Shown here: one piece after another, positions 53,042 to 61,191 of the stretch | Numbering within the stretch: the stretch's first letter is position 1 | Layout of the letters: each line of letters opens with the position of its first letter | Origin: Lophium mytilinum | Taxonomy: Eukaryota > Ascomycota > Dothideomycetes > Mytilinidiales > Mytilinidiaceae | Assembly (NCBI GenBank): GCA_010093605.1 | Contig: MU004191.1 | Coordinates: 1,791,832 to 1,855,831, forward strand | DNA: 64,000 nt | Reading direction: 5' to 3' | Notes under the pieces: model-generated | Seen by the model: only the letters and a program-made list of their open reading frames with translations | Databases searched by the model: none | Told to the model about the DNA's origin: nothing | Translations under genes and position numbers: made by a program

Positions 53042-55313
53042 ATGGGAGAGACTCTTGAGCAGAGCTTGGACACCAGCAAGATCAAAGAATGGCGCTCCAT
53101 CGTCACCCTCATTGTCTTCGTTATCACCAGTGAGTTTATCCACTACGCATCGTGTCCAATGCGCCGAATAATCCCTCAACACGCGCACAGATCTGGTTGT
53201 CATTTTTCCGTTTCATGTTCCATTCTTTATCCCTCGAGTAGTTGTGAACGCAGTTTTAGATGCACTGAGTCGACTCCGCATAATATCTCCCCGCCACCAT
53301 CACTCCAATGATGACCGGAACGGCAAAACACCATTCTTTGTGCGCCTCAACTTTCCCTTGAATTTCGTTACGGCCCCCTTGATCGCCGATCTCTTTCTGC
53401 TTGCCCTTTTGGCAATTGGTAAGAAGGAAGTCCGCGATGGGACCATAGGAGCTGACAACATCTCACCTTACGATATCATGCTCTTTTTCATATCCCTGGC
53501 TTACATCGCCATATCCATTGACGCTTCCGGTTTGATCAGGTACCTAGCATTCAAGGTGCTTCAATGGGGTGGCGACGCCGGCCACAGACTCTACTTCTAC
53601 CTCTACGCCTTCTTTTTCGGACTCTCTAGCTTCATCGGAAATGACCCCATCATTCTGTCTGGCACCGCCTTCCTGGCCTACATGACGCGCGTGTCTAGCA
53701 ACATCATCCATCCAAGCGCCTGGATCCACACCCAGTTCGCCGTTGCCAATATTGGTTCCGCTATCCTTGTCTCCTCTAACCCAACCAACCTTGTGCTCGC
53801 TGGTGCTTTCAATATCAAGTTCATCAACTACACAGCCAACATCATCGTGCCCGTAGTATGCACCGCAGTTGTGCTCTTTCCCTTCTTGCTCTACATTGTC
53901 TTCAACGACGAAGACCTAGTGCCGTCCTCTATTAAGATGCACGAGCTACCCGACGAACTCAAAGCCAAGAAGCCCGTAAATCCCAACATACCTCACGCCC
54001 GGGGGAACGCCGAGGAAGAAGAGAACTTTGCCAACGACGAAGAGGGGAAATTGCTCTCGCTGGAAGAAATCATGAATCCATTTTTGGACAAAGGAGGCGC
54101 CGCGTTTGGAGGCCTAATCATGGCCGCCACACTCATCACCCTGCTAGCGATCAACGCGTCTGGCGAAAAGACTGGGCATAAAGCTGCATTTTGGGTAACC
54201 CTGCCCGCTGCTTTTGTCATGCTAGTCTGGGACATCGCCTTCGGATGGTATCATCGACGCGAGACGCGTGACATTGCTCACAGAGGTCGACAGGAGGTTG
54301 AGCTCGCACGCGCTGAACGTGCCATTAGGGAAGAGGAGGAGGTTGCGCGATCAGCCATTGAGAAAGATAAAGCTGACACTCTGGAGCAAGAAAAAGCTGT
54401 TTTGACTCAGACGTACTCACCCGAACCTCTGGAGAAGCAGAGCGGTAACGGTGATGAGAGCGATATCTCCATCTGTCCACCACAAGCGCCGTCAGGAACG
54501 ACACCTAGCATGGATATAGACGAAAAGAAGCGGGAGGCGGACCTCCAGGCACGCATCTCGCGTGAACTCGCGCTTCGACAGACTCGTGGCCGGTCGACCC
54601 TCGTCTCGCTCGTCGGGGACGCCTACCGGTGGTCACAGGAGACGTTCCCTACCGCAACTACCGTGCTCACACATTTGCCTCTTGCGCTCATCCCCTTTGC
54701 TTTCTCCATGTTCGTCCTCGTACAAGGTAAGCCTACGGTATCAAGGTTGATATGCCTAAAGCGCTAACGAGCGTTCAGCTCTGGTCACCAAAGGGTGGGT
54801 TCAAGTCTTCGCATACGGCTGGGACCATTGGGTCAATAAAACCGGAACCGTCGGCGCAGTTGGCGGTATGGGTTTTCTCTCCGTGATCCTGTGCAACGTA
54901 AGTTCGCTCCCTTTTCCCCTTCCCTCGAACTTCAAGCCCATCGAACTTACTCTTTCTTTCAAATCTAGTTCGCAGGTACAAACATCGGGACCACCATCCT
55001 CCTCTCCCGCGTCATCCAGGCCTGGCAAAACATCCACACATTCAACGGCATCCCCATTACCGACCGCACCTTCTGGGCGACCGTGTACAGCATGGCACTC
55101 GGCGTCAATTTCGGGGCTTTCAGCGCCGCGTTTAGTGCATCGCTCGCCGGGCTGCTCTGGCGCGATATCCTAGCGCGGAAGCATATACGTGTGCATAGTT
55201 TGCACTTTGCGCGCGTCAACTTGCCTATCATTGCCATCGCCATGACGGTAGGCTGTGCAGTTCTTGTGGGGCAGGTATATATAATCAGGGATAACGACCC
55301 TTATAATTTGTAA
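53042..55313 (+). CDS. ArsB/NhaD-like ion transporter
   Basis: Exons 53042-53129, 53191-54726, 54779-54897 and 54969-55313 join to 695 residues; introns of 61, 52 and 71 bp have gtgagt, gtaagc and gtaagt donors. The protein has about ten to twelve spans in two halves typical of the ion transporter superfamily (arsenical pump, NhaD antiporter, citrate transporter). The first half contains FGLSSFIGNDPIILSGTAFL and SSNPTNLVLAGAF; the second contains LCNFAGTNIGTTILLSR, the paired helix-break motif. A charged cytoplasmic loop of about 250 residues (ELARAERAIREEEEVARSA) joins them. It is probably a plasma- or vacuolar-membrane anion or Na+/H+ transporter; substrate not determinable. Confidence 0.85.
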
Positions 55314-55674: not shown

Positions 55675-56721
55675 TTACAGCGCAAAAGCCGCTAGAGCAA
55701 TTCCGAAGACTCCCGCAACCGAGATCCAAAACGCCTTGTCGCCGCTTCCTTTGCTGGCCGACGACTTTGTCGGTATCGCGGAGTAGCTAGACGAGCGCTT
55801 GCCAGTCGCGTTCGCCAGCTTCTCCAAACCCGCCGTGATGGTAAGAACATGATAATTAATCGACTCCTTGGGAATAAGGATAGTGATCCCAGGGTGCGTG
55901 CCCACGTTCTGTTCGCAGCGCCCTGCCGTCGTACCGTTGTAGTCGCATCGCCCGGTCAAGTATTCCGGTGAGCCATCTGCCTGGGTGCTGATACTCGTCG
56001 TGTATCTGTACCAGCCCGGCCCAAACGTGATGGTGTTGGGCGGGTCAGTGGTGCAGCTGGAGCTCACAGTAGTGCCATTGCGCCATGCACACGGGGAGAC
56101 GAGGGCTGCGGTGAAGGTGTCGTTGTAGGCGCCGACGACGCTGCCAAAATTGGGTGCGTTCGCCCCGTCGTCCTGGGCTAGCACTGAGGTCACGCTCGTC
56201 GCCGGGGCCGTGACTGTCACGGTCACCACTGCCGGTGGTGGAGTCGCCATCGCTCCAGCTTCCTGCGTCGATGATGGCCCCGTTAGCTTCTTCAGCCCTT
56301 TCGTGATCGTCACAGGGTGGTATGCTAGCGATGAGATGGAGTACGTTCGCTTGGCGACGAGGCTGCTGCCGGTGTCCGCCTCGCTCTGCTTGCACATCGC
56401 GCTCGTCGTGCCTTTGAGGTCGCAGTGCTCGACGAACGTGTAGGTCGCTACGTCGGTGCCGTCGAGGCGCATTTCGTACCAGGTCGGGCCGTAGGTCACG
56501 GGGAAGTTTTTGCAGCCGGACCTAAGGCCTCCGCAGTCGTTGTCGAGGATGTAGGTGGTGATCGAATTGCTAACGGCGACAACGCTGGCATTGTAGGTAC
56601 CCTCGCTGTTGTCGGGCAGGAAGAGGGAGGTTACGCTCGTTTGGTGAGCGATGGCTGTCGTGAGGAGGAGGGCCGTTGACATGGTGCAGGCCATAATGAG
56701 GACGAGCGCGGAATGCATCAT
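55675..56721 (-). CDS. Two-module GPI-anchored surface protein, paralog 1
   Basis: This intronless gene encodes 348 residues from the first ATG at 56721. It has a signal peptide (1-26), module A (28-148), a Pro/Thr/Val linker, module B (175-307), a Ser/Lys-rich spacer, and a C-terminal hydrophobic tail (WISVAGVFGIALAAFAL) of the GPI-anchor type after a small-residue cleavage region (SASKGSGDK). Each module begins TSVTS, has a central TYGPTWY or TFGPGWY, then C-D-x-x-G-T-T, and ends VTITKGLKKL or LTITAGLEKL. The domain family is not known to me. Several N-glycosylation sites (NAS, NDT, NGT) fit a wall or membrane surface location. It is head to head with paralog 2, 1119 bp between starts. Confidence 0.85.
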   Translation of the reverse strand: MMHSALVLIMACTMSTALLLTTAIAHQTSVTSLFLPDNSEGTYNASVVAVSNSITTYILDNDCGGLRSGCKNFPVTYGPTWYEMRLDGTDVATYTFVEHCDLKGTTSAMCKQSEADTGSSLVAKRTYSISSLAYHPVTITKGLKKLTGPSSTQEAGAMATPPPAVVTVTVTAPATSVTSVLAQDDGANAPNFGSVVGAYNDTFTAALVSPCAWRNGTTVSSSCTTDPPNTITFGPGWYRYTTSISTQADGSPEYLTGRCDYNGTTAGRCEQNVGTHPGITILIPKESINYHVLTITAGLEKLANATGKRSSSYSAIPTKSSASKGSGDKAFWISVAGVFGIALAAFAL

Positions 56722-57840
56722 GGGCTCGGGATGAGCGCGGGATGCAATCAAGAGTGGAGTTTTGGAAACGAGTAATTGGATTTGGCGGAGTGGAAGAGAG
56801 AGGCTGGCATCTAGGGGAGTTGAAGTACGGCACGGCGGTTCTCGTGAGTAGTGAATGAGCTCACGAATATCGCAGCGTAGTTCGTCCGATCAATTTGGAA
56901 GTGGTTGGACCGATTACCAAGCCGTCGTATCTGGGCACCCATTGCTCTCAATGAGTAGGAAGAAGGGGGAAGTATTGATCGTGGCAGTGTACTCCGCGAA
57001 TTTTTCTTTTTGGCACAACTTTCACCAAAGGAGGCTACCCGGATGTCATACTCAGCTAACAAAATGGATACGATAGTAGGATCTAAATTTCACATCTCGA
57101 GGACCTTTGCCAGCGCTTGGTTGAGAGTTTTGTACTATCTATGGAGCATTGCAATATCTAGGTATCAAGAAGGGAGCGACCACGGCAAGTTGATACCCGC
57201 AGAATTGAGGCCAGAAAATCTCTCACTTGATCTCCTTTGCGAGCTAATCTCTCCTTTACATGCACCGCAATGCAGCGGGCATTAGCTGCTTACAGTCTCT
57301 AGTAATAAGCTGAGCTTTATGCATGTACAGATCAACCAGCGACGTATGACACTTTGGCGAAAGCTCCGAGTAGGGCTGTTGCTTCCACGGACTCGAACGC
57401 TAGAACACTCGGACTTGGACATGTTCTGTGCCTTCCTAAATATGTCTTGACGTAGTCGCAAAACGTGTAAACGGGATGGGCTGCTGCATAGCTAAGAGAC
57501 AGCAAGCCAAATCCCGGCGCGATGCACTCGACGTGAGCATGGGAACATGACCAGTAGCCTAGTTGTGCCTTAGTACAGTATGACTCGAGGCAGAGAAACG
57601 ATTCAGATACTATCGTCTAGCAATAGTGCTTTGCAGCAACATTGATGGGTACCGAAGCGAGGCTATTCACATTACCCACGTGATCGATCGCTGGGCGCTA
57701 CCACTTACTTCAACTCTCCACCGGCCTCCCGTTTCTCTCTGACACACAACACCATCCACTCACTCAAAATCCACACGAGCCCCCACGTTCGTTACCATCC
57801 TACGCTCACTCGAAGCTTTTCGCGCACTGTGTCACCAATC
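56722..57840. promoter_or_regulatory. Divergent interval between the GPI-anchored paralogs
   Basis: This 1.1-kb stretch between the two start codons must hold both promoters. No TATA box stands out. A tRNA T-arm-like text near 57390 lacks the rest of a tRNA. Confidence 0.5.
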
Positions 57841-58953
57841 ATGCGTTCCTTCGCTATCCTCGCCATTCTCGCCATGGCTCTCTTGGGCGTCCTGCCAACT
57901 ACGACTATCGCGCAATCCACACGCGTAACCACCATCTTTGTGGCTTACTACAATTACTCAGCCACCTACAACGCCCGCGTTATCGACGCCCAGCCTACCG
58001 CAATCACATACGTCCTCGACGATATCAACTGCAATCCCAACGAACTTCCCCCCAAAGATTGCGTCCGCAACGTTACCGCAACATACGGCCTATCCTGGTA
58101 TCAAGAGGAGCATGTAGATGTGGGAGGCCTGGCAAGCACGGACTTTATTCACTGCGATCTGGAGGGCACGACGGCGGTGGTGGTCACGATCAGCTCGATT
58201 GCGCCGAAGTACACGACGGTAGAGCAGTGGACGGAATCCGCGATGGATGACTTCTACCAGGCTGTGACCATTACGGACGGATTGGAGAAGCTGGCGAGTA
58301 TTACGGGGGGGCTCGTAGCAACTTCGTCCCCAACGCCTACGCCAACTGGGTCGACGAGCATCACGTCGCTTCTTTATCCAAACAACAACTGGGATTTCCG
58401 TGCCGCTTCGGTCGTGGGCTCCAGCAACTCGAGCGTCACCTACGCCTTCGCTTCCTTTTGCAACTATACCACGGAGTCCGCGACGGATGGGGACGGGCCG
58501 AGCGGCTACTCATCCTGCCTCATGCAGCCCGGCGGCTTTACCGCGACGTTTGGTGCGAGCTTCTACGAAGAGCGTACATCGGCGACCGATGATCACTTCT
58601 TCCTCAGTCGGCGGTGTGAGTATGAAGGCTCCCCGACCAATTTGCTAAAGACCTGTACCCAGGGTTTGAAGGACGGGGATGGATCCGACTTGGCGCAGAA
58701 GGATTGGGAGTCGCAGCGGTACGGCACCACGGACGGCGGCTTCGACGGTGTCACGATGCGAGCGGTCACGATCACTGCGGGCCTGGAGAAATTGGCGGCG
58801 GAGACGGGATCTAGATCTGGAATTACGGGAACGCCGACTAGTACAGTCACTGGTACAGCGGCTTCCTCCACCAGCAAGGCCGTTGGTGGTAAGGCGGTCG
58901 AGATTTCAATCGCTGGGGCCGTCGGCATCGCGCTGGCTGCTTTCGTGCTGTGA
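57841..58953 (+). CDS. Two-module GPI-anchored surface protein, paralog 2
   Basis: This intronless gene encodes 370 residues from the ATG at 57841. It has a signal peptide (1 to about 25), module A (27-156), a short Thr/Pro linker, module B (172-323), a Thr/Ser-rich spacer and a GPI-type tail (EISIAGAVGIALAAFVL). The modules follow the same plan as paralog 1: TRVTT or TSITS at the start, TYGLSWY or TFGASFY in the middle, C-D/E-L/Y-E-G, and VTITDGLEKL or VTITAGLEKL at the end. Both tails share the IALAAF text, so one gene probably arose from the other by inverted duplication after the internal doubling. Function unknown; likely cell surface. Confidence 0.85.
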   Translation: MRSFAILAILAMALLGVLPTTTIAQSTRVTTIFVAYYNYSATYNARVIDAQPTAITYVLDDINCNPNELPPKDCVRNVTATYGLSWYQEEHVDVGGLASTDFIHCDLEGTTAVVVTISSIAPKYTTVEQWTESAMDDFYQAVTITDGLEKLASITGGLVATSSPTPTPTGSTSITSLLYPNNNWDFRAASVVGSSNSSVTYAFASFCNYTTESATDGDGPSGYSSCLMQPGGFTATFGASFYEERTSATDDHFFLSRRCEYEGSPTNLLKTCTQGLKDGDGSDLAQKDWESQRYGTTDGGFDGVTMRAVTITAGLEKLAAETGSRSGITGTPTSTVTGTAASSTSKAVGGKAVEISIAGAVGIALAAFVL

Positions 58954-59508: not shown

Positions 59509-61191
59509 ATGGCCTTCTCAAATATCCCAGTCGAAGTCATCAGGCAAATCATCGAGCAAGCAGTCATGCTTCGGAGCGTAAAGCGAGCATTGAGGTTGCG
59601 GCTTGTAAATCGTAAGTACCAATAACAGTGCACTTAGAAAAAGGCCCACTTCCTCTGACACTCGCCCTTAGGAGTTTTCGCTTTCGAAGTCGAGTCTGCG
59701 GTATTCACGACCGGGATTCTTCAAAACCGTGACATAACGGAAATGCCCACGCGTCTCTTCCACACTTACCTCTTCCATCGCACGATGCTAGAACGTCAGG
59801 ACCCTCCATGGATTGCAACCAAGATCAGGGAAACCTGCGAGCTGTTGTGCAAGAGAAGCGGCGTGCCGTCGAAGGATGCAAAGACTCGCCGGACTTACAT
59901 CTCCGGCTTATGCGACGCGATTCAGGACGAGAACTTCCCCATGCCCCGCACATGTATTGTCGCCACGGAAAGCGTTGCCGTTGCGCTAAACTCGAAGGAA
60001 GCCTTGAAGCGCATCGCGGAGGGCATCTCGAGGACGGCTATCCTGGCTGCTGCTGCTCAATTGGGCCTGTTGGACGTAGTTATCCAAATCGTCGAGGAGA
60101 TGAAGAAGACACACGGGCGGTACCATATTGAAGAAGGATCTATCTTCGGCCAGCCGTTCAAAAACGCTGCGGCACAAGGTCACTGCAATGTGGTGGAGTT
60201 TCTTCTCCAAAACGCCGCATGGAACCCAAAGCCTGGTCGGAGACCGCAAATAGTCATTGTTACCAAAATGGCCAGGACTTATAACATAGACATGCTTGAT
60301 CTGCAGTTGCAGTATTCTCCACCCTGGGTTCCTAGTGACTCGTGTGGAAACCTCGCGCCGTGGAAGGATGCTGCCACAGGAATGCCAGGTGGAGAAGTCT
60401 TTACTCAGGTCTTAGCTCTTCTTAAAGAAGTGAGTTTTGACGAAGACGAGGTCGACGAGTATGTCAGCGACGACAACTTGTGCGTTTGGTTGAAAGGCGA
60501 GATGGTGGAATTGAAAGATGTCCAAGAAGCGGAGAGTGTAACACAGGTTCTTCTCGGCCCTCCATGCTCGGCTGACTATGCAGTGTCCTGCCCAAGCGCG
60601 GAGATGGTGTGCTGGGCGAAGAATTTGAGAACTCTCCTGGAGGAGGCATGTCGCACTGGAACACCGGATATGTTCGCCCTTCTCTTACTGCACGGCGCAG
60701 AGCCGCAGTGGGAGGACTTGACATGGGCTATCAGACGAAGACAACTTACAATGGCACGTCAAATTCTCGACCATGGCGTCTCTATAGAAGAGATGCGTTC
60801 TCCGTCCCCGATCGTGCAAGCGATCGCTTCCGAACACATAGCGCTCTTCAGCCTTCTCAGCGAGCGCGGCGTCGTCCCCAAACGTGAGCATGAGAGAGCT
60901 GATCTGGCCCTCCTGGCGTCAAGAAAAAAAGAGGACTGCATTCTGGAGTCAATGATGGAAGCGTTGCAGAGCACTGGACTATCGCTGTCCAAGCAGGCAT
61001 CGGCCAGGCTTCGGCGAGTTGGCCGGAGGAAGCTTTTGCCGGACCTATATCGACTCTTGAATCATCTAGTGCGACCATGTTCCTCGGATGGGTCCGAATT
61101 GCAAGGCGCATACCAAGGGACCCCAAGCACACCAAGCGATTGGAGTGAGGAATCGTCGGAGCGCGATTTCTCGGATTCCGATGCGTGGTAA
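59509..61191 (+). CDS. Ankyrin-repeat protein with F-box-like N terminus
   Basis: Exons 59509-59611 and 59672-61191 join across a 60-bp intron (gtaagt donor, ctgaca branch, cttag acceptor) to 540 residues. The N terminus, FSNIPVEVIRQIIEQAV then RALRLRLVNRVFAFEVE, resembles an F-box helix pair. Ankyrin-like helices follow: TAILAAAAQLGLLDVVIQIV, KNAAAQGHCNVVEFLLQNAA, LEEACRTGTPDMFALLLLHG, AIRRRQLTMARQILDHGV and QAIASEHIALFSLLSERGV. An acidic segment (DEDEVDEYVSDD) lies between the two groups. Proteins of this layout are common and diverse in filamentous fungi, and a role as substrate adaptor for ubiquitin ligase is only an inference. Confidence 0.8.

Follow-up and report, generated by a model that had tools for sequence, protein, structure and literature searches.

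The stretch of Lophium mytilinum DNA analysed here, hereafter the window, comprises 64,000 nucleotides of contig MU004191.1 (C11:1791832-1855831 in our numbering of the 24 contigs). It contains two divergent open reading frames, one on the minus strand at 55675-56751 and one on the plus strand at 57829-58953, whose ATG starts define genes A and B (Table 1). Both frames run without a break from a signal-peptide-like N-end through a hydrophobic C-terminal tail. According to hydropathy (KD15) and inspection by eye, the N-termini are of the signal-peptide type, with values of 2.36 (A) and 2.91 (B). The C-terminal tails, which are preceded by small residues, reached 2.28 and 2.39, respectively, as compared with 1.37 and 1.43 in the interior. 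These hydrophobic ends agree with the signal peptide and glycosylphosphatidylinositol (GPI)-type architecture that a first-pass annotation had assigned to both proteins. Serine and threonine together account for 24-25% of the residues of A and B, and the two sequences contain nine N-glycosylation sequons, five in A and four in B.

Table 1. Features of the A/B gene pair and loci of the one-module paralogues. Positions are those of the window, except for paralogues, which are numbered within the named locus.
Feature	Location	Strand	Description and basis
Gene A	56721-55675	-	Single exon, 348 aa; putative signal peptide, two modules, linkers, GPI-type tail
Gene B	57841-58953	+	Single exon, 370 aa; architecture as in A
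Putative signal peptide of A	56647..56721	-	~25 residues, ending A-I-A; sequence reading and hydropathy
Module A1	56284..56643	-	120 aa, 4 Cys; genome search, shuffle test, structure model
Linker A1-A2	56203..56283	-	Pro/Thr/Val/Ala-rich; sequence reading
Module A2	55816..56202	-	129 aa, 4 Cys; shuffle test, structure model
GPI-type C-terminal tail of A and stop codon	55675..55746	-	Hydropathy; boundary by eye
Intergenic stretch between the A and B starts	56722..57840	.	1,119 bp; candidate two-way promoter, inferred from start codons
Putative signal peptide of B	57841..57912	+	~24 residues, ending T-I-A; sequence reading and hydropathy
Module B1	57916..58293	+	126 aa; fourth Cys is Val
Linker B1-B2	58294..58350	+	Ser/Thr/Pro-rich; sequence reading
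Module B2	58351..58794	+	148 aa, 4 Cys, longer loops
GPI-type C-terminal tail of B and stop codon	58885..58953	+	Hydropathy; boundary by eye
One-module paralogue C	L005 2640-3374
One-module paralogue locus	L019 1596-2531	-
One-module paralogue locus	L020 1692-2219

Each protein had been predicted to contain two related modules of 120-150 residues. The four window modules are 120-148 residues long and share 30-36% identity, and all six pairs among them scored above every one of 1000 shuffles, indicating that their similarity extends beyond composition. The cysteines, a Gly-x-x-aromatic centre and a T-I-T-x-G-L-x-K-L end are conserved in these modules and in that of C, a one-module paralogue described below. 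Over 2,470 aligned codons from the 21 pairs of the seven modules found in this genome, identity at codon positions 1, 2 and 3 was 0.472, 0.512 and 0.412, respectively, and the third position was the least identical in 18 pairs. The longest open stretch at gene A (358, versus a mean of 136 and a maximum of 337 in 1000 mononucleotide shuffles) is a modest argument on its own, and homology is the stronger one. Overall, we consider it confirmed by sequence comparison that modules A1, A2, B1 and B2 are homologous and that the two-module gene pair is real.

Seven single-protein searches of the same 43.2 Mb genome identified three further genes, C, D and E, each with one module. The C-terminal tails of C and D are hydrophobic (KD15 of 2.17 and 2.31, respectively), as is that of E, which is read in a different frame, downstream of a likely intron. 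With A and B, the family thus numbers five genes or more in this fungus. Separately, six cysteines occur within 26 residues between the module and the tail at the L019 locus, which had a sub-cut-off Pfam match only.

As to what the pair encodes, the best explanation, in which as a whole we have moderate confidence, is that A and B are two GPI-anchored, wall-linked surface glycoproteins. Surface contact or binding, with wall matrix, a glycan or a small ligand as the partner, would be a likelier function than catalysis. Alternatively, A and B might be structural wall mannoproteins that have no ligand and whose modules serve only as glycan carriers and as fillers or spacers of the wall, a role that the nine sequons, the Ser/Thr-rich sequence and the strong drift among the modules would suit. 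However, the conserved cysteines, centre and end of the module suggest that a fold has been kept, and a filler would need no two different heads in one pair. We regard a purely structural role as rather unlikely.

To reconstruct the history of the pair, we compared trees of the modules. With all seven modules, A1 grouped with B1 (FastTree support 0.915, ultrafast bootstrap (UFBoot) 65) and A2 with B2 (0.748 and 39, respectively). Forcing A1 with A2 and B1 with B2 was 6.4 log units worse, with p values of 0.038 in the approximately unbiased (AU) test, 0.052 in the Kishino-Hasegawa (KH) test and 0.059 in the Shimodaira-Hasegawa (SH) test. With the four window modules only, the same constraint was 3.2 log units worse (AU p 0.114), and the grouping of A1 with B2 and A2 with B1 was likewise 3.2 log units worse. 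Independent doubling of the modules in each gene after the gene duplication is thus not rejected by the four-module test or by the KH and SH tests on seven modules, and is disfavoured by the seven-module AU test; we judge it improbable. Of the earlier proposal of internal doubling followed by inverted duplication, the pairing of A1 with B1 and of A2 with B2 was recovered, and its order, doubling before gene duplication, is weakly favoured, not proven. Two inverted DNA repeats, taken from eight inverted pairs listed, link the genes at the nucleotide level and are too short for dating the duplication: I1 (55812-55854/58255-58297, 79%) matches the end of A2 to that of B1, and I2 (56404-56427/58150-58173, 83%) falls at the corresponding place in A1 and B1.

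We then considered the cysteines and the predicted fold. The first two cysteines are jointly present in six of the seven modules and jointly absent from that of D. The third is present in all seven and the fourth in six, being replaced by Val in B1. This pattern fits a possible disulphide pairing of 1-2 and 3-4. Mature A has eight cysteines and B has seven, and B may therefore carry a free one. Fold prediction, which the first-pass annotation had proposed as a check, yielded an all-beta module: the AlphaFold2 models of A1 (predicted local distance difference test (pLDDT) 76.1, predicted template modelling score (pTM) 0.71) and A2 (72.3 and 0.67, respectively) consist of strands throughout except for a short helix turn at the end. 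In the A1 model, Cys 74 and 84, the third and fourth, lie on adjacent strands (68-76 and 82-90) and would face each other if these strands form a hairpin. Cys 37 and 44, the first and second, lie between strands, in one loop.

In structure comparisons, which for the A2 model used VIA-align, entries identified by name as avidin folds made up 27 of the 50 matches listed for A1 and 33 of the 50 for A2. A ligand-binding beta-barrel of the avidin/calycin type that retains a small molecule on the cell surface would account for these matches and for the nearly all-strand models, yet the likeness to the avidin family is a weak one of predicted strand arrangement that falls below the noise level, and we consider such a barrel very doubtful. 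In a viral fold library, compared with A1 only, none of the 457 matches (E up to 10) reached E 0.001; a 121-residue Synechococcus phage protein scored E 0.057 with a template modelling score of 0.44.

Database searches provided little further information on the module. Pfam-A contained no family matching A or B at E up to 10, and so neither CFEM nor Kre9_KNH, and none matching five aligned modules. Among the paralogues, C and D had one sub-cut-off Pfam match each and the first exon of E had none. NCBIfam had no match for A, and its single match for B scored 8.4 bits, where the cut-off is 70. A search of the PDB by sequence with A alone returned nothing at E up to 10, and a five-row module profile returned three chance-level matches, the best at E 0.27. 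Scans with a single peptide pattern each matched seven stretches in a viral collection and 16 in a prokaryotic one, none of which was confirmed, an absence that says little about relatives. No paper on the module turned up in a literature search that included short sequence strings and covered a minority of subscription journals. CFEM (PF05730) and Kre9/KNH (PF10342) are domains of fungal secreted surface proteins that are often GPI-anchored; both were matched in this genome, neither of them by A or B.

Single-module proteins of this type are presumably common in filamentous ascomycetes (Pezizomycotina), where they go by unspecific labels such as 'GPI anchored protein'. PANTHER family PTHR40640, named after AFUA_8G04860, is a candidate family for the single-module form. 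PTHR40640-type proteins would resemble A and B in having a signal peptide, similar cysteine spacing, the end motif, a Ser/Thr stalk and a GPI tail, and would contain one module, the form seen in paralogue C. The pair in the window differs in its head-to-head gene order, in carrying two modules on each protein and in the odd cysteine of B1. AFUA_8G04860 appears as a 'GPI anchored glycoprotein' in tables of two papers (PMC3601126; PMC5274715), the second of which gives its conservation as Leotiomyceta. The suggestion that the modules represent an undescribed family was retained in part: they have no Pfam-A match, but the module also occurs singly in three other genes of this genome. It is more accurate to speak of a little-studied family whose module has no name in Pfam, and the pair looks like a two-module, head-to-head elaboration of that family of fungal surface proteins. 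Without a Pfam model, genes carrying the module can be annotated by their ends only; defining its boundaries, its cysteine pattern and, at moderate confidence, its fold would allow them to be grouped and tested.

All four family loci that were found lie less than 82 kb from a contig end. On C11 (1,906,619 bases), the distance to the right end is 56-59 kb for the pair, and the distance to the left end is 61 kb for D. The other two loci also lie near left ends, E on C1 at 78 kb and C on C19 at 81 kb. At most ~9% of the genome falls within this distance of an end (24 contigs, two ends each). For comparison, one of 16 CFEM matches, at 48 kb on C5, and none of three Kre9/KNH matches lay this near an end, and the hypergeometric probability of four of four versus one of 19, calculated by hand, is ~6e-4. 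Fungal surface-protein genes often diversify near such ends, and if the clustering holds in other species it would group the family with further rapidly changing surface proteins of fungi. In the outermost 400 bases of six contig ends, CCCTAA repeats were present at the left end of C11; four ends, including the one nearest the pair (the right end of C11), had no telomere repeats, and one reads N. A DNA search with the TTAGGG repeat, by a method that skips simple repeats, found none. Ends without telomere repeats (L029, L030 and L031) look AT-rich and TA-rich, as does DNA after repeat-induced point mutation.

We propose the following model for the pair as anchored surface glycoproteins. The signal peptide would direct each chain into the secretory pathway, where it is probably N- and O-glycosylated. 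A GPI anchor would be added at the tail, keeping the protein at the plasma membrane or joining it to wall glucan, and two modules, each an all-beta domain with eight to nine strands tied by disulphides, would be displayed in series on a Ser/Thr/Pro stalk. The starting point was probably an ancestral gene with one module, to which a second was added. Inverted duplication of this doubled gene would then have produced the pair, and the intergenic region that A and B came to share may switch them together. The window modules would since have drifted to their present identity within a family located near contig ends.

Several observations weigh against parts of this model. Support for doubling first is weak in both module sets, and the best tree joins A2 and B2 with D at low support (24), and the second module may therefore have another source. 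The third codon position is not the least alike in three of the 21 module pairs, and the N-end of C is only mildly hydrophobic (KD15 1.37). B1 retains the third cysteine without the fourth, contrary to a 3-4 pairing. The AlphaFold2 models were built on four alignment rows; for A2, four of the five models had a mean pLDDT below 56, and loop 37-55, which bears the first two cysteines, is below 50. The contig-end pattern was spotted post hoc, with the 82 kb threshold set by the data. A bolder form of the model, which we consider speculative and improbable, is that the module is an extracellular beta-barrel binding head diversified near chromosome ends, of which the pair is a tandem-head version: one promoter would deliver two heads at once, and the free cysteine of B1 would link B to a partner.

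The pair is adjoined by a gene at 53244-54767, whose product matches the transporter families CitMHS (PF03600) and ArsB (PF02040) above their cut-offs, and by a gene at 59743-61191 that encodes ankyrin repeats.
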